This document shows positions 4,878-56,180 of a stretch of DNA of 64,000 bases, in pieces. The DNA lies in assembly GCA_026874595.1 (NCBI GenBank), contig CM049307.1, positions 91,975,330-92,039,329 on the forward strand. The letters run 5' to 3'. This DNA comes from Sipunculus nudus. Lineage: Eukaryota > Annelida > Sipuncula > Golfingiida > Sipunculidae. Numbering within the stretch: the first letter of the stretch is position 1; each line of letters starts with the position of its first letter. The notes under the pieces are model-generated. The model made no database searches, was not told the origin of the DNA, and saw nothing but the letters and a program-made list of their open reading frames with translations. The position numbers were made by a program, and so were the translations under genes.

Positions 4878-5264
4878 TGTTACGAAGACAAGTTATTCAG
4901 GGGAAAATATTGGGCCGATCTGGGATTCGAAGCCATAACGGTGGCGCACATGTCCGGCATACCAACCGCTTCGCTGGTAAAGCAAGCTTCACTAGCGAGA
5001 CAGTTCGGTCTGTTCTTAAGTCACCGCGTAACACACCCCCTCTTAAGAGCCTTCTGCTATCAGAACAAGACTAATTATCCCAGGAGTCACACTTTGGTGA
5101 GCTTATTCCCTGGACCACAAAGATAACCGTCAGGTTGGGCGAGCCCCCATTTTGTTACAAAGACAAATTTTTCAGGGGAAAATTCTGGGCCGATCTGGGA
5201 TTCGAACCCATAACGGTGGCGCACAAGTCCCGCGTACCAACCGCTTCTATGTCACTCCGTAACA
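4878..5264 (-). mobile_element. complete miniature LTR element (TRIM-like) with tRNA-like LTRs
   Basis: On the minus strand the element runs 5' LTR (5,153-5,264, about 44 bp shorter than its partner), interior (5,034-5,152, 119 bp) and 3' LTR (4,878-5,033, 156 bp). Both LTRs begin TGTTAC and end GTAACA. Three bases after the 5' LTR lies TGGGGGCTCGCC, which fits a primer-binding site for tRNA-Pro. The interior ends in CTCTTAAGAGGGGGTG, a polypurine tract. GTCT flanks both sides (4,874-4,877 and 5,265-5,268), a 4-bp target-site duplication. There is no coding capacity. Each LTR contains a pol III B box (GGTTCGAATCC in the 5' LTR; GGCTTCGAATC in the 3' LTR). The 5' LTR deletion removes the front of its A box. 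Confidence 0.88.
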
Positions 5265-5279
5265 GTCTAAATTGAAGTT

Positions 5280-5960
5280 TGATTCTGTAAACGGTTTTTT
5301 GTATTTGTATCTAAAAAAATCGTATGGATATTTAATTTTGGTATCTCTTGTATCAAGAATCAGTAGGCACTTTGTAAGTACATGTATACTAAGGAATGCT
5401 TACCATTTGTGACCGTGTTTTTATTGTTGATCCGTAGAGCATTCAGTGCAGGTCAGAGTTCATATATAATATATAGGCTACATTGATCGAATAATGAAAG
5501 GATTCATTAATATAATATTGAGAATATTGGGCTACACCGAAGGTGGTTAGAAAAAAAAACCGACACCAGCTCGATATACAAATTTAGCTTATGCATCGAT
5601 TGATTATTTCTAACGTGGTAATAAGAGTACAGCGGGTGTGGTCGTGAATATGGTCAGGTGAAAGACAAGTGCATGTATTCGTGCTGAGTAGCGCAATTTC
5701 TTTTCAATATATGGCGGGACGGCCTTGCCTCCCCGCCACTAATACCCCCCCCCCAATGGTAAACTGAACAGGCCTTTAAAACACTATATACCAAATTCAG
5801 CCTCTATAAAATATATATATAATGTTTTATGTGGTGTTATCAGAATCTAATTCTAGACGGACGAGCGAATATTTTCATGGAAGGGCAATTGTCAACGCTT
5901 AGTATCCGTTGAGGGTGATCAGGAGCTGTTGGGTATGAGTGGGGTTGTCCCATCACTTTT
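5280..5960 (+). repeat. duplicated block, copy of 37,890-38,370
   Basis: Ordered matches with 37.9-38.4 kb include GGCACTTTGTAAGTACATGT, TTGATCGAATAAT-AAAGGATTCA and GAGAATATTGG. A GGGACGG-CTCCCC stretch, the GTATCCGTT / GTGTCCGTT motif and GAGCTGTTGG near the end also match. In the right-hand unit this block leads almost directly into the upstream flank of symporter copy 3. Here about 6 kb of other sequence separates it from the flank of copy 1. Confidence 0.75.
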
Positions 5961-5979
5961 TCCATGTACATTTAAATTT

Positions 5980-6840
5980 TAAGTAATTTTATTAGAGATT
6001 TACAAGGAATATTCTCGCTTCAGAGACGATCATTCAGTAAAATCATTTGCCCCTTGTGCATCCGCTGGTTTTGAACGTTCTGATTTTAATCCTTCAAGAT
6101 TTATTCACTTTGTGTTATTCATGGTCGGTCCACATGTTGGGAACGAAGGAATTATGTCACATTATCAATCATTAAAATTCTGAAAGACAACGCTTAATTT
6201 ATATCCGAGGAACTTTGTAATACTTAGACGGATTTTCGTGAATAAGTCATCTCTGTTCATAGATTACACCACTCATGTAGCGGTTCTATATTGTTAAAGG
6301 TGCCCTTTTTATTGTGTGACACGGGCGTAACTCGTGTTGTAGCACCCTCGCCGGGCCGCTTGTTACATTCTTGGTTGAACTCTCGTTGTCATGATAGCTT
6401 GGGGCTGTTTTAAGTAATTTTTATTAGAGATTTACAAGGAATATTCTCGCTTCAGAGATGATCATTCAGTAAAAACATTTGCCCCTTGTGCATCCGCTGG
6501 TTTTGAACGTTCTGATTTTAATCCTTCAAGATTTATTCACTTTGTGTTATTCATGGTCGGTCCACATGTTGGGAACGAAGGAATTATGCCAAATTATCAA
6601 TCATTAAAATTCTGAAAGACAACGCTTAATTTATATCCGAGGTACTTTGTAATACTTAGACGGATTTTCGTGAATAAGTCATCTCTGTTCATAGATTACA
6701 CCACTCATGTAGCGGTTCTATATTGTTACAGGTGCTCTTTTTATTGTGTGACACGGGCGTAACTCGTGTTGTAGCACCCTCGCCGGGCCGCTTGTTCCAT
6801 TCTTGGTTGAACTCTCGTTGTCATGTTAGCTTGGGGCTTT
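5980..6840 (+). repeat. 432-bp tandem duplication containing an LTR 5' end
   Basis: The sequence from about 5,980 to 6,410 is repeated from about 6,412 to 6,840 with only a few differences. The unit holds about 313 bp of flank plus the first 115 bp or so of the LTR described next. The duplication therefore happened after the LTR element inserted; the first copy of the LTR start (about 6,293-6,407) is not a separate insertion. Confidence 0.9.
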
Positions 6841-7530: not shown

Positions 7531-7534
7531 ATAT

Positions 7535-8583: not shown

Positions 8584-10252
8584 AAACAAGTGGCCTATGG
8601 GCCATGACGCTCAGCTGAACTTGGAAATACAAAGAGTGTATTTTAAAATGTATTCGAAATATAATAAACATCAAATTTTTAATTATTCTGAGGGGTACGT
8701 CTGAGCCCCATAGCTCGAAGTATATGGGTAACAGAGACCTTATTTCAGGTTTTCAATGAGATTTTTCATGGACCTCTCTTGATGTCAAGTAAGAAGATTC
8801 CAGGTACAGTGGTTACGATTTGTGCCCTGTTAACGGACAGACGGCCGAACGGCCAGATAGGCGGACGGACGACGGTCAAAGAGTGACCACTATAGCTCAG
8901 GTGACTTACAGTCAGCTGAGCTGCAAAATTGAGAAAAAAATGCCCAAAAAAAAATTGGAAAAAATCTTTAGGAATTAATGAAATAGTCCTTTATGAATAT
9001 GCATACAAAAAATCATAGTGATCAATGCAAGAGTTGTTCAGATAATGGAGCTTTTGTAAAAAATCATTTAATTATTCTGGGGGGGGGGGGGGGGTGCACT
9101 TTGGAGCCCCATACCTCAGAGGTTATGGATATCAGAGACCTAATTTCAGGTTTCCAAGGAGACTTTTCATGGGCCTCAGGTGATTTACAGTCAGCTGAGC
9201 TGCAAAATTGAGAGAAAATGCAAAAAAATTAGAAAAAGCTGCAGAAACTGATGAAATATTCCATGATCAAAATCTATGCAAAGAATCATAGGGATAATTG
9301 CAATAGTTGTTCAGATACTTCAGCTTTTGTATGAAATTTTCCATTATTCTTGGAACTACTTCGGAGCCCATAGCTAAGAGGTTATGGGAAACAGAGACCT
9401 AATTTCAAGTTTCCAAGGAGACTTTTCATGGGCGTCCTTGCATGTCAAGAGAGAAGATTCTAGGTCCAGCTGTTACGATTTGTGCCCTGTTAACAGATGA
9501 CTGCATCTTAAGAGGTCTAAATATTGAGAAAAAAAAATCGTAAAAGTAAATTGAAAAAATACAGGTGGCACCACCAGCTGCAGAATCTGATGGAATATTC
9601 CATGATCAAAATCTATGCAAAGAATCATGGGGATCAATGCAATAGTTGTTCAGTTACTTGAGCTTTTGTATCAAATTTTCCATTATTCTGGGGGGGGGGG
9701 GGTATTTCGGGGGCCCATAGCTCAGAGTTTATGGGTTACAGTAACCTAATTTCAGGTTTTTAAGGAGACGTTTTATGCGCCTCTCTGCAGGTCAAGAGAG
9801 AAGATTCTAGGTGCAGTTGTTACGATTTGTGCCCTGTTAACATATGACCGCATCTTAAGAAGTCTCAAAAATAGAGAAAAAAATCGTTAAAAAAATAAAA
9901 AAAAATACAGTTGGCGCCACCAGTCTGCAGAAACTGATGAAACACTCCATGATCAATATCCATGCAAAAAATCATGGTGATCAATGCATTAGTTCTTCAG
10001 AAACTCGAGCTTTTGTATCAAATTTTCCTTTATTCTGGGGGGGGGGTACTTCGGAGCCCCATAGCTCAAAGAATTTTGGTAACAGAGACCTAATTTCAGG
10101 TTTCTAAAGAGATTTTTTATGGACTTCCCAGGAAGTCATGTTAGAAGATTCTAGGTCCAGTGCTTACGATTTGTGCCTGGTTAACGAACAGACGGACGCC
10201 GGACAAAGGGAGATCGCTATAGCTCAGATGACTTTCAGTCAGCTGAGCTAAA
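8584..10252 (+). mobile_element. Helitron-like/pearl-type element with about five 0.3-kb internal repeats
   Basis: Starts after a poly(A) run with AACAAGTGGCCTATGGGCC, then GCTCAGCTGA. It ends with AGCTCAGATGAC ... CAGTCAGCTGAGCTA, an imperfect hairpin. Between are about five monomers of 270-345 bp. Each has an ATCAATGCA-AGTTGTTCAG stretch, a G-run after ATTCT in three of them (9,079-9,094; 9,690-9,702; 10,037-10,046), GAGCCCCATA, AGAGACCTAATTTCAGG, GATTCTAGGTCCAG and ACGATTTGTGCC. No protein is encoded. Palindromic ends around a tandem-repeat core fit non-autonomous Helitron/Helentron derivatives (HINE, pearl); the class is inference. Confidence 0.65.
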
Positions 10253-12660: not shown

Positions 12661-13612
12661 AAACTTTGGGAAAACCATTTCACCGCACAGTCTACTCAAA
12701 CCGAGTAACAACATTTATTTGTTCCGCACTAGGAAGCGCCTGCTGTAACCCTGACTAGATTTCCTAAACTTTCCACATGATATAATAATCACGTACCATA
12801 CATTTAATGTCATCGCATGAGACATGACAGTGAGAATTGCCATACCTAACTTATGTTAGTCTTGGAAAAAAAACCAAATACCTAAGTATATAATAGGTCA
12901 AACAACAGACGCAGAAATGCCTGGACAAAAAGGAAACCCCTGTTTTCTCTTAAAAAAATACCTTTACCTGTCATTCAATAATCATATAAAACCATACATT
13001 GAATTTCTTTTTTAATGTATAAGAGAGAGAGAGAGAATTATCAAGACTGCCTTGTGATTCCTTTTTGAATAATTTTAGTCAAATGCAAATGTTGTTAACG
13101 TTACATATGTCTGATATCTTAAACCCTTGGAGGATATGAATCACTGGACCTCGCTCATGATTCACATGTAATCGCAGTCATTTGAGTTCAAGTGACTAAA
13201 CAGCTGGTTATTTGAAAACCCCTGTTAATATAACCACCTCAACACATAAATCCGTTCACCGCAAATTAATTGTGAACGCGATAAATTCGTGTGGAAGGTA
13301 CCATCCCCTGAACATACATGTTTCATTCCACTTTCTCCGAAAATGAAAATAAAAGCTTTATTTTATGTTGCTTTATCACTTTTCGTTATAGGCGTCTAAA
13401 ATGTGACATAGCCATGAACGTTCCCAAGATTTCTGAACATATTTGTTAACATGGTAAGATCTGAACATGCATTTTTAATCACACATGAACCTTGTACTAC
13501 TATTAGGAGCACAGGGGTACATTACTGAATAATATATTGTTATTCGAAGACCATCATCACCCAGCAAGACTCATGACTGCGATAAAGGTCCAAAGGTAAA
13601 ACCGTAACCCGT

Positions 13613-13630
13613 GATCATGATTTACGTTTA
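13613..13630 (+). promoter_or_regulatory. 18-mer invariant upstream of all three symporter copies
   Basis: GATCATGATTTACGTTTA is identical at 13,613-13,630, 20,487-20,504 and 40,278-40,295, and ends 107, 108 and 108 bp before the respective ATGs while surrounding bases differ. It may be a core-promoter or factor-binding site. Conservation could also reflect recent duplication alone. Confidence 0.4.
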
Positions 13631-13639
13631 CTAATAGGG

Positions 13640-13645
13640 TATAAA
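13640..13645 (+). promoter_or_regulatory. candidate TATA box of symporter copy 1
   Basis: TATAAA about 95 bp before the ATG. The equivalent bases are GATACGAAC in copy 2 and GTGTAAAC in copy 3, so only copy 1 keeps a consensus TATA. Confidence 0.4.
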
Positions 13646-13736
13646 CAGGTCATTCGGAAGACAAAACGGCTCATTTAAGTCTATACTTTGGCGTTGAACA
13701 GTTCTGCAGAGGCAACGACTCAGACAGCACGTGAGA

Positions 13737-15647
13737 ATGGAGGTGCAACAGCTCCATCCATTTGACTGGGTCCTGTTCGCACTAATGCTGGTTTTCTCTC
13801 TGGGTATTGGAATATACTTTTCTCTGACTGGTGGTCGACAGAAAACTACGAAAGAATATCTCCTAGCAAACAGAAAATTGAGGGTGATACCCACTGCAAT
13901 GTCAATGTTTGTATCAGGTATGTCAGCAATATTCATAATTGGACAGACCGCAGAGGTTTACCTCCATGGGCCACAGACATACATCGGTATAGTAGGCAGT
14001 GTCGCATCTCTTATACTTAGTGCAATTATTTTCGTGCCAGTATTCTACAAGTTGAAGCTGACCAGCGCTTATCAATATTTGAACCGCCGTTTTGAGTCGG
14101 ATAAACTGAGACTCCTCTGCGTCGTTATAAGCATTTCACGCAGCCTTGTGCACAATGGGCTAGCTATATACGCCCCTGCCACCTCCCTGGAAGCAGTTAC
14201 CGGATTTCCATGGTGGGCCAGCCTCATAATGGCAGGTACCGTTGGAACCGTTTACACGACTCTTGGTGGAATGAAAGCTGTTATATGGACGGACGTGCTT
14301 CAAGCTTCTATCATATTTGCTGGCCTCCTTGCGATGATGATACTCGGGACGATTCGAGTTGGTGGCATAGGGATCGTATTTGAGTATGCAAGAAGAGGTG
14401 GACGGCTTAACTTCTTTAATTTCAACCCAGATCCGACTGTTCGTGTAAACTTTTGGTCGGTGATCGTTGGAAGATTAGCTTTTTCAATGGCCAGTATGGC
14501 TGCCTCACAAGCCAACATCCAACGGTACTGTGCCCTGCCGACCCTCACCAAAGCACGTCTTTCTGTGTTTGCAAATATTCCGTTTACTCTTTTTGCTTCT
14601 ACATCTGTGGCGTATTTAGGACTGGTGATGTATGCATATTTTACTCACATTGGATGTGATCCCTTGAGAGCTCGGATCATTTCAAATCCAAATCAGATCC
14701 TTCCTTATTTCGTCGTAACAGTGATGAACTATCCAGGCGTGACGGGTTTGTTTCTTTCTGTACTATTTTCGGCAGCTTTAAGTACCTACTCATCCAATCT
14801 CAGTTCCCAGTCAGCTCTGAGTTGGAAGGACATCATAGAACCTCGCATTGGAAAGATCCCTGAAACCCGGAAAGCATTGATAACCAAAATACTGGTTTTT
14901 GTGTATGGAATGGTAGCAATATGCATTGGACTTGTATCACGTTATCTACCGGGTCATATCATGGAAGTGTCACGAAGAGCGCTTGGAGCGCTAAGCGGAC
15001 CATTAATAGGAACACTTATGTTGGCCGTAATATTTCCGTGTGCGAATGCTAGAGGAACCATGTTTGGCATTGTAATTTCGTTTGCCTTTGTGCTGTGGAT
15101 AAACATTGGCTCTTACTTAACAAACCCTCATCAAGCCACCTTAAGTACCACTGTTGCAAATTGTTCAATGCCACCAAACGTTACCGCGCTCCCAATTCCT
15201 ACAGATCCACCACCCGGAACTATATTCCCTCTGTACCGTATTTCTTTTATGTGGATTACAACTATCACGACGTTTACGTGCATCATCGTTGGACTGGTCT
15301 TCTCAGGCTTGTTTGGGGGTAGACGGAGATGGTCCGGAGATCCAAGGCTTCTGGTTCCAATATCGAGCTACTGCTGTTTCTGCATGCCAGAATCAGTCCG
15401 TCGCTTCCTGTGGTGTGGAGTTGACCATGACGCCAAGCCAGAAGGTGAGATAAATCTAGACGAGGAGCAGGAACAGAAGGAGGATGACAACAAAGTCGTT
15501 GACGGCGAGATGAAAGGAACCCCCGTAGTATCCCAACCTGGAAAAGAAAATTCTTCATCCCAAAATTTCCGGAAAAGAGCAAACCAACAGCCAGGGTTTG
15601 ATAATAAAGGGTTTGCACACGCGACTGTGGATAGTACCAGGGTCTGA
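13737..15647 (+). CDS. SLC5-family sodium/solute symporter, copy 1 (intact, single exon)
   Basis: A 636-residue Na+-coupled transporter of the plasma membrane. The front half (DWVLFALMLVFSLGIGIYF, residues 10-28; GGRQKTTKEYLLANRKL, 32-48; SAIFIIGQTAEVYLHG, 63-78) matches SLC5A8/A12/A6-type carriers, for which monocarboxylates, vitamins or iodide are known substrates; the actual substrate cannot be read here. SAALSTYSSNLSSQSALSW (345-363) is the sodium-symporter signature region. About 13-14 hydrophobic segments end near residue 527. Sequons NCS (475) and NVT (481) lie in the last extracellular loop. The acidic tail ends STRV, a class I PDZ ligand, as in SMCT1. The start is the ATG at 13,737 (A at -3, G at +4); the in-frame GTG at 13,731 is not a eukaryotic start. 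The lack of introns suggests a retroposed ancestor. Confidence 0.93.
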   Translation: MEVQQLHPFDWVLFALMLVFSLGIGIYFSLTGGRQKTTKEYLLANRKLRVIPTAMSMFVSGMSAIFIIGQTAEVYLHGPQTYIGIVGSVASLILSAIIFVPVFYKLKLTSAYQYLNRRFESDKLRLLCVVISISRSLVHNGLAIYAPATSLEAVTGFPWWASLIMAGTVGTVYTTLGGMKAVIWTDVLQASIIFAGLLAMMILGTIRVGGIGIVFEYARRGGRLNFFNFNPDPTVRVNFWSVIVGRLAFSMASMAASQANIQRYCALPTLTKARLSVFANIPFTLFASTSVAYLGLVMYAYFTHIGCDPLRARIISNPNQILPYFVVTVMNYPGVTGLFLSVLFSAALSTYSSNLSSQSALSWKDIIEPRIGKIPETRKALITKILVFVYGMVAICIGLVSRYLPGHIMEVSRRALGALSGPLIGTLMLAVIFPCANARGTMFGIVISFAFVLWINIGSYLTNPHQATLSTTVANCSMPPNVTALPIPTDPPPGTIFPLYRISFMWITTITTFTCIIVGLVFSGLFGGRRRWSGDPRLLVPISSYCCFCMPESVRRFLWCGVDHDAKPEGEINLDEEQEQKEDDNKVVDGEMKGTPVVSQPGKENSSSQNFRKRANQQPGFDNKGFAHATVDSTRV

Positions 15648-17640
15648 ACCATCGGCCATGCGACAATAACAAAGTATGTACTGCTTGTTATGGAATTTCC
15701 CGCGAACCTTTCAAAGCACACACACATATACCTGTAAACCTCTTGTTACAGACAAATTTTTAAAGCTTTATTAGTAGCATAAAATAGAAATACAGCATTT
15801 CTAATAAGCCTTCCACAGTCATTTTATTTTATAAGATTTTGCATAAAAAAATATATTTTCACGTTTAGGCCTGATAAACTTGTCAATCAATTAAAATTTT
15901 ACATTTAGTAATAATGTAAAATTCACAAAGCAGTAAAACAAATAGCAGAAATACTTTATGAATCAAATTAACGGATATATGAATACATTTGAAGCATGTG
16001 GATTTGTGAGATCACATATGTGTTAATAAAAAAAAATTATCTCAGTAATACTCGCATTTATACCAGTAATAAATGGCTATATTTATTTAAAAGAATAATA
16101 TGAAGATGGATCATTTTCAAGCATGAATTACTTTTTTGAAACCCTGATATAAATGTGAATATGTAGCATACGCATTGAACGGCTAGTCACCACTCTGTAA
16201 GCTCTTAAATTAAACTTTGTAGACAATAAGACTCATTTGCTTTGTGAACTTAAAGGACTGATATGCTTGCATGAAAAAAAGTTAACTGGAAGTTATAACA
16301 AAAAAAAGTTTTCTTCGCTTATCTACCTTAACTCTTTACATATGACACGAGAACTCTTAATCGACAAAAAAGTGTTTCTATAGACTAACACTGACTCTTT
16401 TTCGTATTAAATGTAAATGTCGCATCATTATATGCTTGAAAATCGTTTCCTTATTTAAATATATGCTTTTAGCGAAATGTAAGCCTCAGCTATCAGCGCG
16501 GTTTCGTTTGAGACATCCGGTAATGGTCTTTGACTGATGAAAGGTCCTTAAGCCAGAAATTCGCGGGTCACATCGGACGCTGGGACCCTCAGAACCGAGC
16601 ATCCGTAAGATATTTCAAGCATCAGAGAGGCTTACCCCCGCGTCTCTGAAAGCCCTGATATATATAATAAATTTTCTTCATATATTTCTCCGTCTTGCAT
16701 TGGAGCGATACGAAGAGTCCCCTAACTGTACTGTATATAGTTAAGGAGAACACGGTTATCTGCTTGTATTTAAATTTTAATTTTGATCTAAATTCAACAT
16801 AAAAAATGCAACAGACAGCTTACATTGAAATCCCTTTTGTTGAAACCATTATATTAGGAACATATTAAGAGAGGTGCCAGCAACATCCCCCAAAACATGC
16901 ACCTGATACACTTTCACTAAAAAAACGGTAGAATGCCTAAATAATAAACCCAGAGATGGCCATGTGCTTTGGGTCTGTTTTAAATACAGTTGTTAAAATT
17001 GTCCCCAGAGAAAGGAGAGACAGTCCACGTTCAGTAATAGGTCCTGCTATTTTGTAAAGGTATTGCATATACTTGTTAGGCAAAGTGTAGCCGTGTACTT
17101 CCTGACGAAATGGTATCATATTTATTTCTGTTCTGTTCTTGGTACTGTTATTCTGTTATTCGTTCAAAAAGAGTGAGTTCTTTCTAGACATAAATAGATA
17201 TGAAACATCGAAAGTAAGAATCCTGATTTCAGTTTTAATCAACTTTCGTTCAATTTTTAATAATAGGATTATAAGACGAAATATTGTATTACCTGTATAT
17301 CCATGAACAGTCTTTATAACAATGTGAATACCTACCTTTGAAAGCTCAGTTGAATATGTTGTGACAAAAAATGAATAAATTGTAAAATTTGTTTTATCAA
17401 TAAACTGCAACAATTTGATTTTCTGTATCATCCATGATATGTGTTTGTTATTTTTCACGTTACTTGTATATATCTCAGTGAAAACTTTGATGACTGTATC
17501 TTTATTACTGACTATGCGATTTACCTGTTTTACACTAAAAGAGTAAATTTTAAACATTTGACGTGATTGTTCGAACACCAACTATTTATCTAGCCTCGAC
17601 GAGATATTGATATATAGCGTAATGGACATTTACACCTAGT
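15648..17640 (+). repeat. shared 3' flank of symporter copy 1
   Basis: Matches 22,524-24,040 and 42,190-43,640 in order: CAAACACAxATATACxxGTxxACCTC, GATATAAATGTGAATATGTA, GCCTAAATAATAxACCCAGAGATGG, GAGACAGTCCACGTTCAGT and GTGACAAAAAATGAAT. AATAAA at about 16,023 is a possible polyadenylation signal. Small open frames here (for example 17,156-17,581, minus) are AT-rich, lie in duplicated non-coding DNA and are not called. Confidence 0.75.
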
Positions 17641-17649: not shown

Positions 17650-17958
17650 TATCATGAACGTTGTGTCATTTATAAATGATCCTTTTAATAAACTTTTGAC
17701 AAACATGTGGCTCACAGCTAGAATGTTGTTTACTTTATCCAGCACCAGTCACGCACTTGTATTTGTCCTGCGTTCTGCTATTTTTTATGCAGTGAAATAA
17801 TTGCATCAATTAAATTCTCATTTTACCGGCTATGGAAAAGACGCAGAATCTGACGTTTCATGTCTGAGATTTACAATAAAAAAATCAAATTCTCGTAATA
17901 TGCCGAATCAGAAATGACTCGCCAATATGAATTACAACTTTTTTTTTCCACACACACA

Positions 17959-18005
<47 letters not shown>

Positions 18006-18312
18006 TTCAAGGAATGTTGTGTCATTTATAAATGATCCTTTTAATAAACTTTTGACAAACATGTGGCTCACAGCTAGACTGTTGTTTACTCTATCCAGCA
18101 CCAGACACGCACTTGTATTTGTCCTGCGTTCTGTTATTTCTTATGCAGTGAAATAATTGCATCAATTAAATTCTAATTGTACCGGCTATGGAAAAGACGC
18201 AGAATCTGACGTTTCATTTCTGAGATTTACAATAAAAAAATCAAATTCTCGTTATATGCCGAATCAAAAATGACTCGCCAATATAAATTACCACTTTTAT
18301 TTCACACACATG

Positions 18313-18363
<51 letters not shown>

Positions 18364-18705
18364 TTCAGGGAACGTTGTGTCATTTATAAATGATCCTTTT
18401 AATAAACTTATGACAAACATGTGGCTCACAGCTAGAATGTTGTTTACTCTATCCAGCACCAGTCACGCACTTGTATTTGTCCTGCGTTCTGCTATTTTTT
18501 TATGCAGTGAAATAATTGCATCAATTAAATTCTCATTTTACCGGCTATAAAAAGACGCAGAATCTGACTTTTCATTTCAAAGATTTACAATAAAAAATCT
18601 AATTTTCGTAATATGCCGAATCAACAATGACTCGCCAATATGAATTACCACTTTTTTTTCCACACACACATGCACACACGCATATATAAATATGCTTTAA
18701 GGTTC
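17650..18705 (+). repeat. three about 357-bp tandem units ending in CA/TA microsatellites
   Basis: Units start with GTTGTGTCATTTATAAATGA at 17,660, 18,016 and 18,374 (periods 356 and 358). They share ATGTGGCTCACAGCTAGA, CCAGCACCAG-CACGCACTTG and GACGCAGAATCTGAC. Each ends in a CACACA stretch and, in the first two, a TA run (about 17,962-18,003 and 18,332-18,361). One unit only exists in the 3' flank of copy 3 (43,655-43,900), so the triplication is specific to copy 1. Confidence 0.9.
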
Positions 18706-18744: not shown

Positions 18745-20611
18745 CGTCTCATGAAAGAGGTACACCACCCTAACATTATCACTAACTAGTAGGTATCACT
18801 CGTCGTTCTCTTCTAAACCACAGTAAACTTCACCTTTTCCAGTGTTTATAGTGGCAGGGCTTTCGGGCGATCTAGGACCAGAAGTTTCTCTCTTGTCTCA
18901 CTTACAGTCACACAATTGCATTCGATTAAGTGCCCAGAGCGGCGAATTAAACTTTCATAAAATCATTTCACCGCCAAGTCTCTCAAACCGACAGTAACAC
19001 TATATATTTTTATCTACATCCTAACTAAACTTCCTGAACTGTTCACATGACATCGTTATTACGTAACATAAATTTAGAATATACCATCGCGTCAAAATAT
19101 GACAGTGAGAACTCCGATACCTAAGATATGTTAGTCTTTGAAAAACAAATACCAAAGCAAACGAATGATAGGTCAAACAACAGGAGCAGGAATACCTAAA
19201 CTACAACAAAAATTAACCCTGTGATTTCAACGTTTCTGCAAAACGCCAGACAAAAATTACTTCTCCGGTTAGGCCATAATCATGTTAAACTGTATATTAA
19301 AAATATAAGGATACTTATATAAACTGCCTTGTGATGCCTTCTTGAATCCTTTTAGTCAAAAGCAAGAGTCGTTAACGTTACATATCTATGATTTATACAA
19401 TCTTTGGAGGACATGAATCACTGGAACTTGCTCTATAAGATAGCATGCATATAATCGCGTGTTTAACCATAGTATTTCTTAACCATGCAGTAGAGCAGAT
19501 GTTATGTCATTATTGCCCTTCAAAAAGTGTTTTGCATAACAAATTAGCACAAATTCTTGACCTTCTACTGAAGACCTACCAGAGGAATCCTTGACATTCA
19601 TTCTTTAATTGTTAGCGAGAAAAGAGAAAATACAAACGCGATTAATAGATAATGATAAACGGGGCCGTCATTCCGAACTAGGCTCAAGACCAGATTATTT
19701 GCTCATCAACCAATTTCTTTATTTAGGCCATCTAGTTACACTGCACATTATGAAGTGCAGAAGGAAATTTTATCCGGATCTCATTATGTGATTTCTGTTT
19801 GACTTTTAATTTAAAAAAAAGAAATTGTAAATATTCCAATTCGTCAATTATTACCTTTTTAGTAACCTTATCAAAATTACAGATAATGACACGGAAAGAT
19901 TCAAGGTAAATTGTGTGATAGGTTTGGCAATGGTGTCTAACGGCAGAATATACAGGGATGCCTTTATGAATGCCACAATGACGTCACAGCTAACTGGCTA
20001 GTTGAAACCTCTTTCAATACAATCACCTTATCACAAAATTCCGTTCATCGAAAATAACGGTGAACTCTAGAAATTCGCGTGGAAGGTAACATCTACAGGA
20101 CATACGTCTTTAATTCCCTTTTCTCCGAAAATGATAAAAAAATAGGTGTAGATAATACACCCTGAGAATGACGTATGCCTTTAGCTCAAACTACAATCAA
20201 TGTTACAGTTAGTAGTATAGCGGTATTTATGACAGAGGCAGCATGTTGTTGCTTTATCACCTCTCGTTAAGGAGCCCAAAAGGTGACATATCCCTGAACC
20301 ACTGTTAGATTTCTGGGCATGTTTCTTTACATAGCTTAGATCTGAACATACCTCTTCACTTAGACCTGTACCTTGTACTATAAGGAGTACAGGGTTCATA
20401 AGTGATATATTATTATTCGAAGAATAATCATCAACCAAAAAGATTCATGTCTGCCATAAAAGTACAAAGGTATATCCATAACCGATGATCATGATTTACG
20501 TTTATTATTGTGATACGAACAGGTCATACAGAAGACAAAACACCTCATTCACGTCTATACATTGGCGTTTAATAGTTCTGTAGACGCAACGACTCAGACA
20601 ACGCGTGAAAA
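18745..20611 (+). repeat. shared upstream flank of symporter copy 2
   Basis: Begins with GAGGTACACCACCCTAACAT, then CACAGTAAACTTCACC, GACAGTGAGAACTCC and GTTAGTCTTTG, matching the flanks of copies 1 and 3. It lacks the MITE seen at 12,150. The TATA-like position is degenerate, whereas the invariant 18-mer is kept at 20,487-20,504. No other gene is seen. Confidence 0.8.
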
Positions 20612-22300
20612 ATGAAGATCCAACAGCTCCATCCATTTGACTGGGTCCTGTTCGCACTCATGCTGGTTTTCTCTTTGGGTATTGGGATATACTTTTCTCT
20701 GACTGGTGGTCGACAGAAAACTACCAAAGAATTTCTCCTAGCAAACAGAAAGTTGCGGGTGATTCCCACTGCAATGTCCATGTTTGTATCAAGTATGTCA
20801 GCAATATACATCATTGGACAGAGCGCAGAGGTTTACCTTCATGGGCCACAGACATACATCGGTATGTTAGGCAGTGTCGCAGCCCTTATACTTTGTGCAA
20901 TTATTTTCGTGCCAGTATTCTACAAGCTCAAGCTGACCAGCGCTTATCAATATTTGAACCGCCGTTTTGAGTCGGATAAACTGAGACTTCTCTGCGTCGT
21001 CATAAGCATTGCAAACAGTCTTGTGCACAATGGCTTGGCTGTATACGCCCCTGCCACCTCCCTGGAAGCAGTTACCGGATTTCCTTGGTGGGCCAGCCTC
21101 ATAATGGCAGGAACCGTTGGAACCGTTTACACAACCCTTGGTGGAATGAAAGCTGTTATATGGACGGACGTGCTTCAAGCTTCTATCATATTTGCTGGAC
21201 TCCTGGCGATGATGATACTCGGGACGATACGAGTTGGTGGCGTGGGGATTGTGTTTGAGTATGCAAGAAGAGGTGGACGGCTTAACTTCTTTAATTTCAA
21301 TCCAGATCCAACAGTTCGTGTGACATTTTGGTCGGTTATGGTTGGAAGATTAGCCTTTCAAATGGCCACTATAGCCGGCTCACAAGCCAACATCCAACGG
21401 TACTGTGCCCTGCCCACCCTCACCAAAGCACGTCTTTCTGTGTTTGTAAATATTCCGTTTACTCTTTTTGCTGCAACATCTGTGGCGTATTTGGGACTGG
21501 TGATGTATGCATATTTTACCAACATTGGATGCGATCCCTTGAGAGCTCGGATCATTTCAAATCCAAACCAAATCCTTCCTTATTTCGTCGTAACAGTGAT
21601 GAACTATCCAGGCGTGACGGGTTTGTTTCTTTCTGTACTATTTTCGGCGGCTTTAAGTACCTACTCGTCCAATCTCAGTTCCCAGTCAGCTCTGAGTTGG
21701 AAGGACATCATAGAACCTCGCATTGGTAAGATTCCTGAAACCCGAAAAGCGATAATCACCAAATTACTTGTTTTTGTATATGGAATTGTAGCAATTTGCA
21801 TTGGTCTTGTATCGCGTTATCTTCCCGGTCATATCATGGAAGTGTCACGAAGAGCACTTGGTGCGCTAAGCGGACCATTAATAGGAACACTTATGCTAGC
21901 CGTGATTTTTCCTTGCGCGAATGCTAGGGGAACCATGTTCGGTATTGTGATTTCGTTTGCCTTTGTACTGTGGATAAACATTGGCTCTTACTTTACAAAC
22001 CCACATCAAGCCACCTTAAATACAACAGTGGCAAATTGTTCAATGCCACCAAACGTTTCCGCGCTCCCAATTCCTACAGATCCACCGCCCGGATCTATAT
22101 TCCCTCTGTACCGCGTTTCGTTTATGTTGATAACAACTATCACGACGTCCACGTGCATCTTCGTTGGACTGGTCTTCTCAGTCTTGTTTGGGGGTAGACG
22201 GAGATGGTCCGGAGATCCAAGGCTTCTGGTTCCACTATCGAGCTACTGCTGTTTTTTTTTTGCCCAAATCAGTCCGTCGCTTTCTGTGGTGTGGAATTGA
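20612..22300 (+). CDS. SLC5-family symporter, copy 2 (tail frameshifted)
   Basis: The ATG at 20,612 opens a 562-residue frame that matches copy 1 with about 36 substitutions over the first ~547 residues (roughly 93-94% identity by eye). All membrane segments and the signature region (SAALSTYSSNLSSQSALSW) are kept, as are both glycosylation sequons (NCS, NVS). After YCC (residue 546) a T10 run (22,252-22,261) replaces the 9-base stretch of copy 1. The frame shifts and stops at 22,300 after ending SLSVVWN. The ancestral tail is still readable in the other frame to 22,523, ending STRV. As written, the protein would be a full transporter core without its acidic tail and PDZ ligand. A homopolymer sequencing error is a serious alternative. 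Confidence 0.85.
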   Translation: MKIQQLHPFDWVLFALMLVFSLGIGIYFSLTGGRQKTTKEFLLANRKLRVIPTAMSMFVSSMSAIYIIGQSAEVYLHGPQTYIGMLGSVAALILCAIIFVPVFYKLKLTSAYQYLNRRFESDKLRLLCVVISIANSLVHNGLAVYAPATSLEAVTGFPWWASLIMAGTVGTVYTTLGGMKAVIWTDVLQASIIFAGLLAMMILGTIRVGGVGIVFEYARRGGRLNFFNFNPDPTVRVTFWSVMVGRLAFQMATIAGSQANIQRYCALPTLTKARLSVFVNIPFTLFAATSVAYLGLVMYAYFTNIGCDPLRARIISNPNQILPYFVVTVMNYPGVTGLFLSVLFSAALSTYSSNLSSQSALSWKDIIEPRIGKIPETRKAIITKLLVFVYGIVAICIGLVSRYLPGHIMEVSRRALGALSGPLIGTLMLAVIFPCANARGTMFGIVISFAFVLWINIGSYFTNPHQATLNTTVANCSMPPNVSALPIPTDPPPGSIFPLYRVSFMLITTITTSTCIFVGLVFSVLFGGRRRWSGDPRLLVPLSSYCCFFFAQISPSLSVVWN

Positions 22301-22523
22301 CCATGACAACAAGCCAGAAGGTGAAATAAATCTGGACGAGGAGCAGGAACGGAAGGAAGATGAAAACACAGTCGTTGACGGTGAGATGAACGGAATCCTC
22401 ATAGTATCTCAACAGGGTACAGAAAACCCTTCATCCCCAAATTTTCGGAATGAAGCAGACCAACAGCTTGGGTTTGAAAATAAAGGGTTTGAACACGCAA
22501 CTGTGGATAGTACAAGGGTCTGA
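22262..22523 (+). pseudogene. out-of-frame but conserved tail of symporter copy 2
   Basis: Continues the ancestral reading frame from SVRRFLWCGIDHD through an acidic stretch to STRV, closely matching residues 553-636 of copy 1 with no stop. Its conservation suggests that the one-base insertion is very recent, polymorphic or an artefact. Confidence 0.8.
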
Positions 22524-37905: not shown

Positions 37906-38370
37906 AATCGCATTATATTTGATTTTATTATCTCCTTCTTATCAAGATTAATTAGGTACTTTGTAAGTACATGTATAGTATATAATGTTACAATTTGCGA
38001 CCGCGTTTTTGCCGTTGTTCGGTAGTGCCCTCAGTGCAGACCAGGTTTCATAACATTATAATATATGGGCTATATTGATCGAATAATTAAAGGATTCACA
38101 AATATTAAAAGAGAATATTGGTATACACGTGCACCGAAGAAGGATAAAATAAATCAACTCTGGCTGGGTATACAAATTTATATTATGAAATTTCTGTTCA
38201 ATATATTGTGGGACGGCAAATTCCTCCCCATCCCTAGCACCCCAACCTCCGGCAAACGCCTTTATGGAACACATATTTTTATGAAAGCGCGATTGTCGAC
38301 AGTGAGTGTCCGTTAATATAAGGGGGTCGAGCTGTTGGAATTTGGTGGGGCTGTCCTCGCCACAGTTCTC
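37890..38370 (+). repeat. duplication block, partner of 5,280-5,960
   Basis: Runs almost directly into the upstream flank of symporter copy 3, giving the likely ancestral order: this block, then the shared 5' flank, then the gene. Confidence 0.75.
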
Positions 38371-40402: not shown

Positions 40403-42187
40403 ATGGAGGTGCAACAGCTCCATCCATTTGACTGGGTCCTGTTCGCACTAATGCTGGTTTTCTCTTTGGGTATTAGAATATACTTTTCTCTGACCGGTGA
40501 TCGGCAGAAAACAACGAAAGAATATCTCCTTGCAAACAGAAAATTGAGGGTGATACCAACTGCAATGTCAATGTATGTATCAAGTATGTCAGCAATATTC
40601 ATCATTGGACAGACCGCAGATGTTTACCTTCATGGGCCACAGTCATACATCGGTATAGTTGGCAGTGTCGCATCCCTTATACTTTCCGGTATTATTTTCG
40701 TGCCTGTGTTCTACAAGCTGAAGCTGACCAGCGCTTATCAATATTTGAACCGTCGTTTTGAGTCGGATAAACTGAGACTTCTGTGCGTCTTTATAAGCAT
40801 TGCACGCACCTTTGTGCACAATGGGCTAGCTGTATATGCCCCTGCCATCTCCCTGGAAGCAGTAACCGGATTTCCTTGGTGGGCCAGCCTCATAATAGCA
40901 GGAACCGTGGGAACCGTTTACACGACTCTTGGTGGAATGAAAGCTGTTATATGGACGGACGTACTTCAAGCTTCGGTCATATTTGCTGGCCTCCTTGCGA
41001 TGATGATACTCGGGAAGATTCGAGTTGGTGGCATAGGGACCGTATTCGACTATGCAAGAAGAGGGGGACGGCTTAACAAAATTTTACTGTTCGTGTGAAC
41101 TTTTGGTCGGTGATCGTTGGAAGATTAGCCTTTTCAATGGCCAGTATGGCTGCTTCACAAGCCAACTTCCAACGGTACTGTGCCCTGCCTACCCTCACCA
41201 AAGCACGTCTTTCTGTGTTTGTAAATATTCCGTTTTCTCTTTTTACTTCTACATCAGTGGCGTATTTGGGACTGGTGATGTATGCATATTATACCCACAT
41301 CGGATGTGATCCCTAGAGAGCTCGTATCATTTCAAATCCAAACCAAATCCTTCCTTATTTCGTGGTAACAGTGATGAATAATCCAGGCGTGACGGGTTTG
41401 TTTGTTTCTGTTCTGTTTTCGGCAGCTTTATGTACATACTCGTCCAATCTCAGTTCCCAGTCAGCACTGAGTTGGAAGGACATCATAGAACCTCGCATTG
41501 GAAAGATCCCTGAATCCCGGAAAGCATTAATAACAAAATTACTGGTTTTTGTGTATGGAATGGTAGCAATATGCATTGGACTTGTATCACGTTATCTTCC
41601 GGGTCATATCATGGAAGTGTCACGAAGAGCGCTTGGTGCGCTCAGCGGACCATTAATAGGAACACTAATGTAAGCGGACCATTAATAGGAACACTAATGT
41701 TAGCTGTGATTTTTCCGTGCGCGAATGCTAGGGGAACCATGTTTGGTATTGTGATTTCGTTTGCCTTCGTGTTGTGGATAAACATTGGCTTTTACTTAAC
41801 AAATCCCCACCAAGCCACCTTAAATACAACGGTGGCAAATTGTTCAATGCCACCAAATGTTACTGCGCTCCCAATTCCTACAGATCCACCGCCCGGAACT
41901 ATATTCCCTCTGTACCGCATTTCTTTTATGTGGATAACAACTATCACGACATTTACGTGCATCTTCGTTGGACTGGTCTTCTCGGGATTGTTTGGGGGTA
42001 GACGAAGATGGTCCGGAGATCCAAGGCTTCTGGTTCCACTATCGAGCTACTGCTGTTTCTGCATGCCTAAATCAGTCCGTCGCTTCCTGTGGTGTGCAAA
42101 AAAGCAAACCAACAGCCTGGGTTTGATAATAAAGGGTTTGAACACGCGACTGTGGATAGTACCAGGGTCTGAACCATCAAAAATCTG
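40403..42187 (+). pseudogene. SLC5-family symporter, copy 3 (pseudogene, four or more lesions)
   Basis: Opens with an intact ATG and 225 residues close to copies 1 and 2, with unusual changes such as GIRIYF and TGDRQ. It is then broken. (1) A small deletion/replacement at about 41,077-41,088 shifts frame after residue 225. (2) A TTG to TAG change at 41,314-41,316 stops the next segment. (3) A 29-bp tandem duplication (41,644-41,672 and 41,673-41,701) creates a stop and a shift in the TM11 region. (4) About 155 bp of the cytoplasmic tail is missing at about 42,097, and the STRV end is out of frame. The rest stays highly similar to copy 1, so inactivation looks recent. No intron explains the gaps because no splice sites flank them. 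Confidence 0.93.
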
Positions 42188-45705: not shown

Positions 45706-46640
45706 TGCAGATCACCAAAAGCAGACCATCAGGGATATTTTTTAGTTCAAAGCCCTAAGCAGCGTTTTAAAGGGGCCTATTCTGTCTGACGTTTATTAGC
45801 CAAAGGAAGTTCTTTGAACCTTTATATAGCAATAGGTCAGAAACCTCCGATCTCAACGCACACATGCTATTCTATTGATATCCTTATGTAGTGATATCCT
45901 TTTATATTTATAAATTTGGACCTGCCAAAATTATCATTTAACCAAACACAGTAAACTAGGACATATGTTTTCAAGTCAGTAGAACAAATTTGGAAAAAGC
46001 GTTTTGCAGCTTCCTTTCCGCATATATGTAATCAATCGCCTTAGATTACATGGTTTTCTGTCTGTCAACATTGCTCTGTTTACTAATATCTTGTTGTGTA
46101 ACAAGCTAATATATTTGTCAAAGAGAAGTTAATTACATAGTTATTAACATGTACCAGACTAAATACAGAAATTATTGAAATTATGTAGAAACGTATGTGC
46201 ATTGCTTTCTTTAAAGAAAATGTAAGAGCGATTAAAAAACTTTGACCTGGTTATACGCAGGGAAAAAACGAAGCTTTTGGTTCAATATGCTGTTATGATT
46301 AGGCAGCTGAATTTGTGTCCGCGAGGTTTATTGGTTCGAATCCTGTTTGGACCGTCCTCCCTGGTAAACCCCTTGTCAGTGTATTAACCAAAAAAAGCAT
46401 AGAAAAGAGACGGTGTTTTAATAGTTACCAGAAACGTATACAGAACTGTTTTAGCATGCATTCCCATTTATTTACCACACGTCACCTCCCGTCTGACGTT
46501 TGGGAAGCCGTTCAATTCGCTTTGTATATTTGAAGCGTTTTCGGCTTATAGACATGTTGTTTTGCATAGTCTGGTTCTTAATTTGTTAAGGGGCGGAATC
46601 GGGTGAGACTTCTAGACCATGGAAATTTAAGTGAAAACTG
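45705..46640 (+). repeat. downstream duplication block, unit 3
   Basis: Matches 24,690-25,520 and 32,765-33,650, including GATTAGGCAGCTGAATTTGT and the perfect B-box-like GGTTCGAATCC at about 46,333. The open frame at 46,315-46,533 lies inside this non-coding block and is not called. Confidence 0.7.
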
Positions 46641-46682: not shown

Positions 46683-47740
46683 TTATTTTATATAGCGTAA
46701 AATCCACAGAGTGCTCTAAAACGCTGTACAAATGATATGAATAAACATAATAAAAATATACATGTGTATGCTCATCAATCAAGATAAAAAGGTATTTATC
46801 CATGCACACAATAAAAGTCTTTATGTACTAAAATGATTTATGAATAAGAATGTTTTCAACTGACTCTTAAACTGAGAATAACTGGACATGGATCTCAACT
46901 TCGCTGGGAGATCATTCCACATTTTAGGCCCTGCGACACTGAAGGCACTATTTTGTACTCGTGTTGATTTTGTGAATGGGACATGCAGTAAATATTGGTC
47001 GGCAGAACGCAGTGCTCTGCATGGATTGTATTGTTGCAACAATTCCTGAAGATACTGGGGTGCAAGCCCATAGACACACTGATATACCAAAGTCAGAACT
47101 TTAAATTTCACTCGCTGTTCAACTGGCAACCAGTGAGGAGCATACAAAACTGGTGTGATGTGTTCCGAATTTGATTTCCCAGTGAGAATTCTAGCTGCAA
47201 CATTTTGAATACGTTGCAGGCGATTCAATTGAGCAGATGTAGCACCGCATAATAGTGAATTGCAGTAATCCAGCTTGGTCGTTATAAATGAATGAATGGC
47301 CGTTTCAAGAGAATCACTATCCAAATATTTCTTTAGTTTGCCTATATTTCGGATGTGCATATAAGCGGACTTGCACACCGATGAGATATGGGCATCCATC
47401 GATGCGTTTGAGTTCATGATGATACCAATATTCCTGGCAGAATGCGAGGGTAAAATATTACAGTTTCCAATGTGAAGTGTGGGTGATGTAAGCTTGTTTC
47501 TCATTGACTGTGATGAAATTACTAAGAATTCGGTCTTGTCACTGTTCAACTTAAGGGTATGTCGACTCATCCAGTTTTGTATTGATGTTATACAGGTTTC
47601 AAGCTGACTAATGGCTCCATCAATGTCGGTGGGTTTGCATGTTATATACATCTGAGTGTCGTCGGCATATAGATGGTAATTTATGCTCATTTTACGAAAT
47701 AGATATCCTAATGATGTTGTGTAGATGGTGAAAAGGTATG
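46648..47740 (-). mobile_element. 5'-truncated CR1/L2-like LINE insertion
   Basis: The minus-strand element ends in a TTA trinucleotide tail (46,650-46,682 on plus) and is cut off at about 47,740. On both sides the sequence matches the uninterrupted orphan unit (33,640-33,720), so it inserted into the already duplicated block. It encodes the reverse transcriptase fragment listed next. Truncation at the 5' end with a microsatellite 3' tail is typical of CR1-group LINEs. Confidence 0.85.
46821..47740 (-). pseudogene. LINE reverse transcriptase, C-terminal part
   Basis: An uninterrupted minus-strand frame of about 305 codons. It runs without an ATG from about 47,740 (YLFTIYTTSLGYLFRK) into NYHLYADDTQMY, the catalytic YADD motif. 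LNSDKTEFLVI and the C-terminal region TTKLDYCNSLL, HWLPVEQRVKFKVLTLVY, STRVQNSAFSVAGPKMWNDL follow. This is the palm-thumb and tail region of CR1/L2-type non-LTR enzymes. The endonuclease and front of the reverse transcriptase are missing, so it cannot move on its own. The absence of stops suggests a young insertion. The first ATG (47,688-47,690) is incidental. Confidence 0.88.
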
Positions 47741-48310
47741 AAAGACCATCGGCCTATAGCTACTGACATCGGTATTCTATCAAAACCATCGGCCGGCAAG
47801 CATCAACATTTTATTTATGCATTTGGCCCACCGAGAAACTACTCAGTAGCCCGGTGGCAGGCCCGGCCCGGAATTGGTTTGAGCAAGGTGTTAATTGCTC
47901 TATTTTAAAAACTGCCAACATTTATTTAATTATAGAGAAATTATTTTGATTCATTTAACTATATATTTCACATGCCTCTGCATGGTAATATGTCATCACT
48001 GATGATTCTAAGGTCATATATTATGTCTCATCGTGTTTTATGAATATATAAATACATATGGTAGCACTCTGGTGAGTTATGTATGGGATTTAGCGATCAG
48101 TAAACCAGTACATATAAACATGATTAAGTTATCTTGATAGTTTTCGTGCCAGCTTGAACCGTTGTTTTCATTTGACAGATAGTACAAACGACTCCATGAT
48201 GGATTCACATTAACGGTTATGTGAAGTGTAATAACTTTCCACGTGCTTCACGAGAACAAATGATCAGATATCGCATTAACGATCAATGGCGGCACTCGTG
48301 TCAGACAAAA
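47741..48310 (+). repeat. duplication block, partner of 33,690-34,270
   Basis: ACTGACATC-xTATTCT, ACCATCGGCC-GCAA, CAGTAGCCCGGT, AATTGGTTTGAGCAAGGTGT, GTAGCACTCTGGTG and CAAACGAC are shared in order with the orphan unit. Confidence 0.75.
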
Positions 48311-49185: not shown

Positions 49186-49223
<38 letters not shown>

Positions 49224-52829: not shown

Positions 52830-53160
52830 TATTTTTTTTCTTTCACGCGTCACGTATAATCTAACAATATTCCTGATTTATGGCTCCCTTCATTTTAATC
52901 ACAACGTGATCATCATATATACATCAACAATAAAATTGATAAGATCACGCGTAGTCCTATAATAAACCTTGGTTTATTTATCTATCAGTTCACTGGGGCA
53001 GGGTCCCTCTGTATTATTGGTGCCAAAATATGTTCATTCTTCTTGATTACATCCAAACATATAGAGATGACTATTTTTAACTAACAATGTTGCAAGGTAT
53101 ACTTTGTAAAAATTCAAGAACAATGATATTTAAACACCCAATCATTCTTAAAAAATGTAA
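52830..53160 (+). repeat. duplication block, partner of 27,630-27,970
   Basis: Far downstream edge of the similarity between units 2 and 3 (GTGATCATCATATATACATC; AACCTTGGTTTATTTAT). Beyond it I see no further shared unit sequence. Confidence 0.7.
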
Positions 53161-53292
53161 ATATAATAACAGTTATAGCTGGGTCCTCAACAAGCGTCAG
53201 TTATCTGATGATCGCCCGGGTGCCTATACCGGCAACGGCGTGAAACTCCGAGTTATAACAAGATGATTCAGCGTGCTTAACGTTTAGTATAT

Positions 53293-53577
53293 TGTTACGG
53301 GGTGCATAAAAGCGGACCGAACTGTCTCGCTGGTGCAGCTTGCTTTTCTAGCAAAGCGGTTGGAACGCCGGACTTATGCGCCACCCACATGGGTTCGAAT
53401 CCCGGATCGGCCAAGTATTTCCCCCTGAACAGTTTTTCTTCGTAACAAAATGGGGGCTGTTCCAACGTGACGGTAAACTTTGTGGCCCAGGAAATAAGCT
53501 CACCAATAAACGACTTCTGGGATAATTGGTCTTTTTCTGATTACAGAACGCTCTTTAGAGGAGGGGGGGGGGGGGTT
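53293..53577 (+). mobile_element. partial miniature LTR element (5' LTR and interior)
   Basis: LTR 53,293-53,447 (155 bp) starts TGTTACGG and ends CGTAACA. Three bases later TGGGGGCTGTTCC marks the primer-binding site. The interior continues with GTGACGGTAAACTTTGTGGC and GGGATAATTGGTCTT, and ends in a purine tract that has become a G-run (about 53,560-53,575). No 3' LTR follows. Inside the LTR are a perfect A box (TAGCAAAGCGG, 53,349-53,359) and a perfect B box (GGTTCGAATCC, 53,392-53,402). Confidence 0.85.
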
Positions 53578-55680
53578 TAAGCCGGGTGCTCAATTCCCGA
53601 TTTTATCAAGCGACATTGTCGTGCGATTTTTTTTTGGCCGATTTTCTCAGTCGGCTGAAAATCAGCTCGGTTCAGTTGGCCGGTTTTTCGGTGTCACATT
53701 TACCGACGCCCGTGTTCCCACCTCTCGATTATCGCCGAAGTAGTCTGTTACATCATGGCGATCTGATACTGAGCTTTCTAGGTGAAAACCCAAAAGGAAA
53801 TATTTGTTCGCTTTGTGGCTTGTCCAAAGAATTATGTGTCGGAAGAGTGACTTGTGGGTTAAAATTTGGCTTGAGTGTAGAGAGGAACCAGGGGCACATA
53901 AACAGTACACTTGTATGCGAACTGAGACAGGAGGATGAACCGTCCTTCATCAATATAATGGTTTTCTTCGCATATCTCAGAAGCGGGTCCAGGATTTAGG
54001 AAAAGAATGGTCCAACCCTAGACTAAAAACAAAACCTAAAGAAAGGTCCCCAGGTCCGAAAGGATTGGTCTTAAACCCTTTAAACGATTGCGGCGGCAGA
54101 TCTGCAGGATTTGGTAAAACCAAACATCCAGCATCAGGATACTACATTCAGAAGGGCTATTTCACCAGATATGAACTCTAATTTAGAAAATGACATTCTA
54201 ATTGCATGTGTGTGTGATTTCTAGGATTTCCTGTTTCCAGAAATTCAAATAAGTAATATGTAATCTTTTATTCTGCATAAACCAGCCAACACTTCACTTG
54301 ACTGGTACACACCACAAACGCCAACAGCAGCGGGTATTTTGCGTGATTATGTTTTAATTTTTATCATTCATTCCCGCAGACGTGAGATAATCAGTTATAT
54401 ATCTGGCGACTCTCTGTCATCTGTCAGATTAAATATATTTTTAAACGAATTAAAGTACAGCATCGCGTACCAATGCCGCTGACCTATGTTCGTTCAGTAT
54501 TATGTTTACAGAAATGTTCTCACATTGTAATTACAAGAAGGGATACTCCTTTATAATCAAATACTTATAGTAGGAATTCGGTTCACGTTTGTTCGCAATG
54601 TTCCCTAAAACCGCGTTGTGTACAATACTGTGCCATACATCATTTTAATTGCTATTATCCCCTTAGTGACATAGGCGATATGAAAATAAATAATTTTTAA
54701 TGTACATATAATTTTGAGTGATTTTTCCGTTTATTTTACCGAGCACAGCCGAACCGCCCTCGGCAATCACCGGAATGCGTGCATCGTGGTCACTCATCCT
54801 AAAACACTAAGGTAATTGTTCATATGAATAACGCTTGCTTTCAGTTAGGGATTTGAGCATGTCTGGCTTACATTTGAATGAGGCTCTCACCCACGTGCGT
54901 GGCCAGTAAAAGAAAAAAAAACACATTTTTCTCGCTATTTGAAATGGAGAGTTCAACCCCGGAGGATTAATGACAAAACCTAATTCAAGGTCCCAATTTA
55001 AGGAACAGGGCTAGGGTGGGGTGGTGGAGGGGATTGAAGGCCTCATAATTTTTCTGATACGATGAAAAAAGGTTGCGGTGGCTGAAAATTGGAGCCTCTG
55101 CTGTAATCCCGTTGGGTCCGCCTCTGCTACTTACCATGTATGCATATTTTTCATTTTTTCTTCAGGAACAGTTTCCTTGCAAAGAACATTTGATTAATCG
55201 TTCATGTGTTCCTCACATCAACCTATTCTTTATACGTCCAACGATAGAAGCCAGTCAAATATCAACGAAACACTGAATGCCCCCGCGTCTGATTCCGGTT
55301 CGCAATGTAAACCATCACTGACCAGGTCTAAAAGGTAAACATATACCGGGTTGAGATTTTTTTGGCCACGAGCACAGCGCCACAAAATAACTGTAAAAAA
55401 AAAATTTGTACATATCCGATTCAGAGAGTATCACACTAAAATCTATATTTTCTTTTAAATTTTAGAATAAAATATGAGCCAACATTCAACATCTCAGTAA
55501 ATATATCTCCCCAACCCCGGTAAAAAGCCCGGTATACCGGGTTTATCAGCAATTGTGATTAATTAATTGCAGGTCGTCTTTTAGGAATACATGAAATTTG
55601 AATCTTTACCAAAATCGGTCTTTAATTCTTTTTAAATACAGAAATATGCCTTATACAATCACGCCGAAGCCGACAAAATC
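53578..55680. other. intergenic, no gene recognised
   Basis: A 137-codon frame at 53,586-53,999 has no recognisable domain and starts in inverted-repeat-like sequence (GGCCGATTTTCTCAGTCGGC). The rest is AT-rich with no recognised element. Confidence 0.45.
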
Positions 55681-55782
55681 GCGTCGCTTGGGGTGTCACA
55701 CTACACGACAATGTACCCCCGTCGGTACATAGTCGGCCGATCCTGTGAATCGGTCGATAAAATCGGCAAGTAAGCCACCGGC

Positions 55783-56180
55783 TTTAAGGGGTGCATTAAA
55801 GCGGACCGAACTGTCCTCACTAGCGAAGCGGTTGGTACGCCGGACCTGGGTTCGACTCCCGGATCGGCCCAGGATTTTCCCCTCAACAATTTCTCTTCGT
55901 AACAAAATGGGAGCTCGTCTTACGTGACGGTTAACTTTGTGGCCCAGGGAATAAGCTAACCAAAGTGTGATTCCTGGGATAATTAGTCTTTATCTGATAG
56001 CAGAACGCTCTTAAGAGGGGGTGTGTTACGGGGTGACATAAAAGCGGACCGAACTGTCTCGCTAGTGAAGCTAGCTTTGCTAGCGAAGCGGTTGGTTCGC
56101 CGGACTTGTGCGCCACCGACCTGGGTTCGACTTCCGGATCGGCCCAGGATTTTCCCCCTCAACAATTTGTCTTCGTATCA
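55783..56180 (+). mobile_element. full-length miniature LTR element (TRIM-like)
   Basis: 5' LTR 55,783-55,904 has a degenerate first end and is shorter, but ends CGTAACA. The 119-bp interior (55,905-56,023) starts AAATGGGAGCTCGTC (tRNA-Pro-type site with one change) and ends CTCTTAAGAGGGGGTG. The 3' LTR 56,024-56,180 (157 bp) starts TGTTACGGGG and ends CGTATCA. The A box (TAGCGAAGCGG, 56,081-56,091) is perfect; the B box at 56,124 has one change in the 3' LTR and is perfect in the 5' LTR (GGTTCGACTCC). No target duplication can be read because the left end is eroded and a TA microsatellite abuts the right. Confidence 0.86.

Follow-up and report, generated by a model that had tools for sequence, protein, structure and literature searches.

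Three decayed copies of a miniature LTR retrotransposon, very probably of the Helenus kind, in a 64-kb window of Sipunculus nudus

Background

Non-autonomous miniature long terminal repeat (LTR) retrotransposons (TRIMs) with tRNA-derived sequence in their LTRs have recently been named Helenus (Kojima 2024, PMC10886601). They are reported there from six animal phyla and are grouped with Cassandra and Ajax as TRIMp3. In that paper, animal Helenus elements are described with boxes A and B, 4-bp target duplications and a Gypsy-like primer-binding site (PBS), a tRNA-Pro PBS occurring among the bivalve families, and their lengths range from 311 to 1263 bp. The tRNA likeness of the LTRs was recognised with Censor and tRNAscan-SE, Helenus-type elements inflate the predicted tRNA gene counts of rust fungi, and function through RNA polymerase III (pol III) is, by the paper's own statement, not yet validated. 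In this study, we analyzed three related copies of an element very probably of this kind in a 64,000-nucleotide stretch of Sipunculus nudus DNA (contig CM049307.1 of assembly GCA_026874595.1), called the window throughout.

Three other systems come close to the element reported here. According to the same source (PMC10886601), the LTRs of Cassandra, a plant TRIM, likewise contain a pol III promoter; there it is 5S rRNA sequence, whereas the motifs found here are boxes of the tRNA type. For Ajax, a nemertean TRIM whose length of 421 or 434 bp is similar, the source gives a putative pol III promoter in the LTRs; Ajax differs in its partial 5S rRNA sequence, 5-bp duplications and tRNA-Leu PBS. 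The bivalve family biv-TRIM (Satovic et al. 2019, PMC6934838) also consists of animal TRIMs, which differ from ours in their lengths and in a conserved interior segment; that paper gives repeats of 202-218 bp and an interior of 77-80 bp, describes TGATCCCAAAGGAC as conserved in all species of the family but one, and states that the authors identified no unambiguous PBS.

The original prediction for this DNA had suggested that the element would be a tRNA-type counterpart of Cassandra in an animal. The kind is already in print as Helenus (Kojima 2024, PMC10886601), and the novelty so implied therefore does not stand. Among the titles and abstract openings of the papers listed on TRIMs and on LTRs that are tRNA-like or have tRNA promoters, no description of tRNA-type LTRs other than this paper was found, and in the library searched no second paper on Helenus or TRIMp3 was listed.

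Results and discussion

Anatomy of the copies

Comparison of the window with itself revealed three related copies, as had been predicted, at 5264-4878 (minus strand), 53293-53564 and 55783-56180, hereafter copies 1, 2 and 3. No fourth copy was found in the 64-kb window by this comparison at an E-value of 0.01, the sole extra match being a run of 17 G. All three are old and decayed and, judged by the published description, very probably represent a Helenus-type TRIM. They share with Helenus, as described in PMC10886601, the TRIM layout, boxes A and B of the tRNA type in the LTR, the PBS, the purine tract, the 4-bp duplication and a length within 311-1263 bp.

Both LTRs are present in two of the three copies (1 and 3), and the interiors of both are non-coding and 119 bp long. 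The expected layout of repeats of about 156 bp around a 119-bp interior is thus seen in LTRs of up to 155-157 bp and in the interiors of copies 1 and 3, while the 5' LTRs of these copies measure only 112 and about 122 bp and copy 2 is without a 3' LTR. In the same way, the termini TGTTAC and GTAACA, once thought common to the repeats, are both intact in three of the five LTRs (both of copy 1 and that of copy 2), copy 3 having lost its 5' terminus and reading GTATCA at its 3' end. A perfect 4-bp duplication flanks copy 1, AGAC/AGAC on the element strand and hence the predicted GTCT on the plus strand. No duplication can be assessed in the other two, since copy 2 is cut short and the end of copy 3 meets an AT microsatellite.

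All three interiors begin with AAA, followed by a tRNA-Pro-like PBS that matches 12, 11 and 11 of 13 bases in copies 1, 2 and 3, scored against the complement of what we take to be the 3' end of tRNA-Pro, and all three are closed by a purine tract; the original prediction was right on both points, including the offset of 3 bp. With at most two mismatches allowed, the 13-base PBS pattern has five matches in the window, three of them inside the copies, where 1.36 are expected, and the PBS takes its weight from a position fixed in all three copies rather than from the match count. Since only two matches lie outside the copies, both with two mismatches, no partner element is visible in the window by this sign. 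The exact 20-base LTR/PBS junction of copy 2 gave no match in viral_contigs or genome_contigs, as expected for an animal element.

Membership of biv-TRIM would account for an animal miniature LTR element with a G-rich purine tract, and is nevertheless scarcely credible. The repeats and interior given for that family in PMC6934838 do not agree with LTRs of at most 155-157 bp and an interior of 119 bp, and when TGATCCCAAAGGAC was sought with up to three mismatches, none of its seven matches in the window fell inside the copies, shuffled sequences giving 5.5 on average.

Promoter boxes in the LTRs

The window was scanned for pairs of boxes, namely TRGYNNARNNGG or its version shorter by one base, followed at a distance of 38-50 bp by GGTTCRANYCC, with no more than one mismatch per box. 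Pairs were found at three places, which are exactly the three copies, and the spacing was always 43 bp; among 40 dinucleotide shuffles, 27 gave no pair, 9 gave one and 4 gave two. Chance was considered as an explanation of the pairs and rejected. As the three matches belong to related copies and are not independent evidence, what their number chiefly tells is that the pair has been retained. A pair at 43 bp without any mismatch is present in copy 2 only; in copy 3 the B box of the 3' LTR departs from the motif at one base, and in copy 1 each box of the 3' LTR does so. Deletions have affected the remaining two LTRs: the 5' LTR of copy 3 retains exact motifs for the A and the B box at a spacing shortened to 28 bp, and in the 5' LTR of copy 1 the B box is exact and the A box is gone. 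With the box pair broken in their 5' LTRs, copies 1 and 3 are probably dead as they stand.

Boxes at tRNA spacing are also what a tRNA-derived short interspersed element (SINE), seen here in tandem or in pairs, would carry, and the G run of copy 2 and the AT microsatellite of copy 3 could pass for its simple-repeat tails. We consider a SINE very improbable: a 119-bp interior separates two direct repeats in two of the three copies, a PBS and a purine tract occupy the interior ends in all three, and the G run of copy 2 comes after the interior purine tract, not after the tRNA-like unit. Moreover, copy 1, which alone has two intact ends, shows the 4-bp duplication directly at TGTTAC and GTAACA and has no tail. 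The LTR interpretation made at the outset is upheld by the paired LTRs, the PBS, the purine tract, the 4-bp duplication and the boxes at tRNA spacing, which the SINE alternative fits worse.

A proposed model of transcription and mobilisation

In four of the five LTRs, TTTT is found at an aligned place 26-27 bp before the LTR end, and the interiors of copies 1 and 3 contain no run of four or more T; with even base frequencies, chance would give one or two TTTT per about 430 bp, and the copies are few and related. TTTT is the minimal pol III stop. From these motifs we infer a model in all its steps. The two boxes would recruit pol III, which would start in the 5' LTR about 10-20 bp before the A box, read through the interior and stop in the 3' LTR, most likely at the shared TTTT. 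Together, start and stop would define the R region (about 80-90 bp) and the U5 (about 26 bp) on which LTR-type first-strand transfer depends. Reverse transcription would be primed by tRNA-Pro, and reverse transcriptase and integrase would be supplied by a Gypsy-type element elsewhere in the genome. Because pol III would have to get past the TTTT of the 5' LTR, full-length RNA would be limited by read-through, and most transcripts may be short tRNA-like RNAs.

A more far-reaching version, which we hold to be improbable, would make the element an unlisted Helenus family, perhaps in a phylum without reported Helenus, and its LTR cassette a pol III unit with two products. Most transcripts would then end at the LTR TTTT and be short tRNA-like RNAs. 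The template for retrotransposition would arise by leaky read-through to the TTTT of the 3' LTR, and this read-through would also set the borders of R and U5.

Weighing the pol III interpretation

A number of observations count against a Helenus-type element with a pol III promoter. Only one target duplication was seen, in one of three copies, which is also the one copy of one with both ends intact. The fifth base of the A box is a purine (A or G) in these copies, whereas most Helenus elements have TRGCY according to PMC10886601. The original prediction had placed A and B boxes 43 bp apart in each full LTR; this arrangement is present in three of the five LTRs, one per copy, leaving two LTRs without an intact pair, and it is free of mismatches in copy 2 only. 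The damaged pairs are those of the 5' LTRs of both two-LTR copies, where a promoter is needed. Copy 2 has TTTC instead of the common TTTT in its LTR, where a TTTT also lies upstream of the A box and a T5 close to the end; a further T5 is in its interior. Finally, ARAGORN found no tRNA, and no Rfam family matched in the window at gathering scores.

Permissive Rfam scans over the copies (best match per clan) contained no tRNA family among the matches listed at E up to 10. The tRNA clan appeared there as a weak tmRNA match at 55777-55863, in the 5' LTR of copy 3, with 15.2 bits against a gathering score of 47 (E 0.0022), and no match of this clan was among those listed for copy 1. Folding of three LTR pieces, each alone, gave three unlike structures and no tRNA cloverleaf. 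As neither ARAGORN nor Rfam recognised a tRNA, the LTR appears to retain promoter boxes and not a recognisable tRNA.

An ordinary TRIM transcribed by RNA polymerase II (pol II), with a piece of tRNA or SINE origin in its LTR that has no promoter function, would differ from the explanation preferred here in the transcription step only. The negative ARAGORN and Rfam results, the weak tmRNA match as the one listed for the tRNA clan, the unlike folds and the damage to the 5' box pair in two of two two-LTR copies all speak for it. We nevertheless judge pol II transcription possible but rather unlikely, since every copy has preserved the two boxes at 43 bp in one of its LTRs, although LTRs of different copies are no more than 83-90% identical, and a pol III promoter requires the boxes, not the complete cloverleaf. 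A promoter that worked through pol III is regarded as probable.

Cassandra and Ajax were considered as identities for the copies and rejected. The window has no Rfam match at gathering scores, and no 5S rRNA was among the matches listed in the permissive scans, which argues against Cassandra; the Ajax LTR has partial 5S rRNA sequence (PMC10886601), and its duplication length and PBS are other than those found here.

Age and decay

By the standard mechanism, the two LTRs of an element are identical at insertion. Within the copies they now agree at 100 of 112 aligned bases (copy 1) and 113 of 122 (copy 3), and the insertions are therefore old. The LTRs of different copies are 83-90% identical, and the three pairs of interiors agree at 97, 107 and 97 of 119 bases, the copy 2 interior being cut to 119 bases for this comparison. 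Three of the four other LTRs, all but the 3' LTR of copy 1, carry two AAGCGG motifs; the gap of the copy 1 5' LTR can be aligned between these motifs and would fit a deletion between direct repeats. The coordinates of all parts are listed in Table 1.

Table 1. Positions of the LTRs, interiors and associated motifs of the three copies in the window
Feature	Position	Strand	Remarks
Copy 1, 5' LTR, 112 bp (other LTR 156)	5153..5264	-	B box present, A box missing
Copy 1, interior, 119 bp	5034..5152	-	tRNA-Pro-like PBS and purine tract
Copy 1, tRNA-Pro-like PBS	5137..5149	-	12 of 13 bases
Copy 1, 3' LTR, 156 bp	4878..5033	-	both boxes at 43 bp, each with one mismatch
Copy 1, AGAC of the target duplication, upstream (element strand)	5265..5268	-	
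Copy 1, AGAC of the target duplication, downstream (element strand)	4874..4877	-	
Copy 2, 5' LTR, 155 bp	53293..53447	+	
Copy 2, A box, no mismatch	53349..53359	+	
Copy 2, B box, no mismatch	53392..53402	+	
Copy 2, interior up to purine tract, G run next, 3' LTR missing	53448..53564	+	
Copy 3, damaged 5' LTR, about 122 bp	55783..55904	+	terminus eroded, two alignment gaps, boxes 28 bp apart
Copy 3, interior, 119 bp	55905..56023	+	PBS-like start and purine tract
Copy 3, 3' LTR, 157 bp	56024..56180	+	boxes 43 bp apart, one B-box mismatch, GTATCA end at AT microsatellite

The surrounding window

The window has a GC content of 38.3%, and TACATGTA is enriched in it, with seven occurrences compared with 1.5 on average in 10 shuffles, a count that does not point to a particular phylum. 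Its symporter ORFs and LINE-like reverse transcriptase piece, described below, would make the window animal-like. For Gypsy domains, the Pfam scan covered five open reading frames (ORFs) of the window. A reverse transcriptase fragment lies at 46821-47753 on the minus strand (Pfam RVT_1, E 4.4e-08; 310 aa stop to stop), which by its look is presumably of the non-LTR type. This piece, which resembles a long interspersed element (LINE), is adjoined by an (ATA)n run. About 270 bp upstream of the run, the B-box motif GGTTCGAATCC is found at 46333, in a possibly tRNA-like stretch at 46270-46370 that could be what is left of a tRNA-derived SINE.

Three related stretches with ORFs of an SLC5-type sodium:solute symporter, 84-90% identical in DNA, were located at 13366-16355, 20247-23250 and 39894-42099. 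The first two, which were those compared with Pfam and matched its domain SSF, each have a single long ORF (649 and 563 aa stop to stop, respectively), and the third is split over several ORFs and contains a 29-bp tandem repeat at 41644-41704. Tandem arrays occupy 5977-6838 (period 432 bp), 9237-10185 (347 bp) and 17656-18693 (356 bp), and sequence like that of the 347-bp array recurs at 36392-37908.

Conclusions

The copies described here are an independent sighting of a young category, the TRIMs with pol III promoters, and their own weight is small. The TTTT common to four of the five LTRs leads to a simple, testable model, in which a pol III transcript would serve LTR-type reverse transcription.

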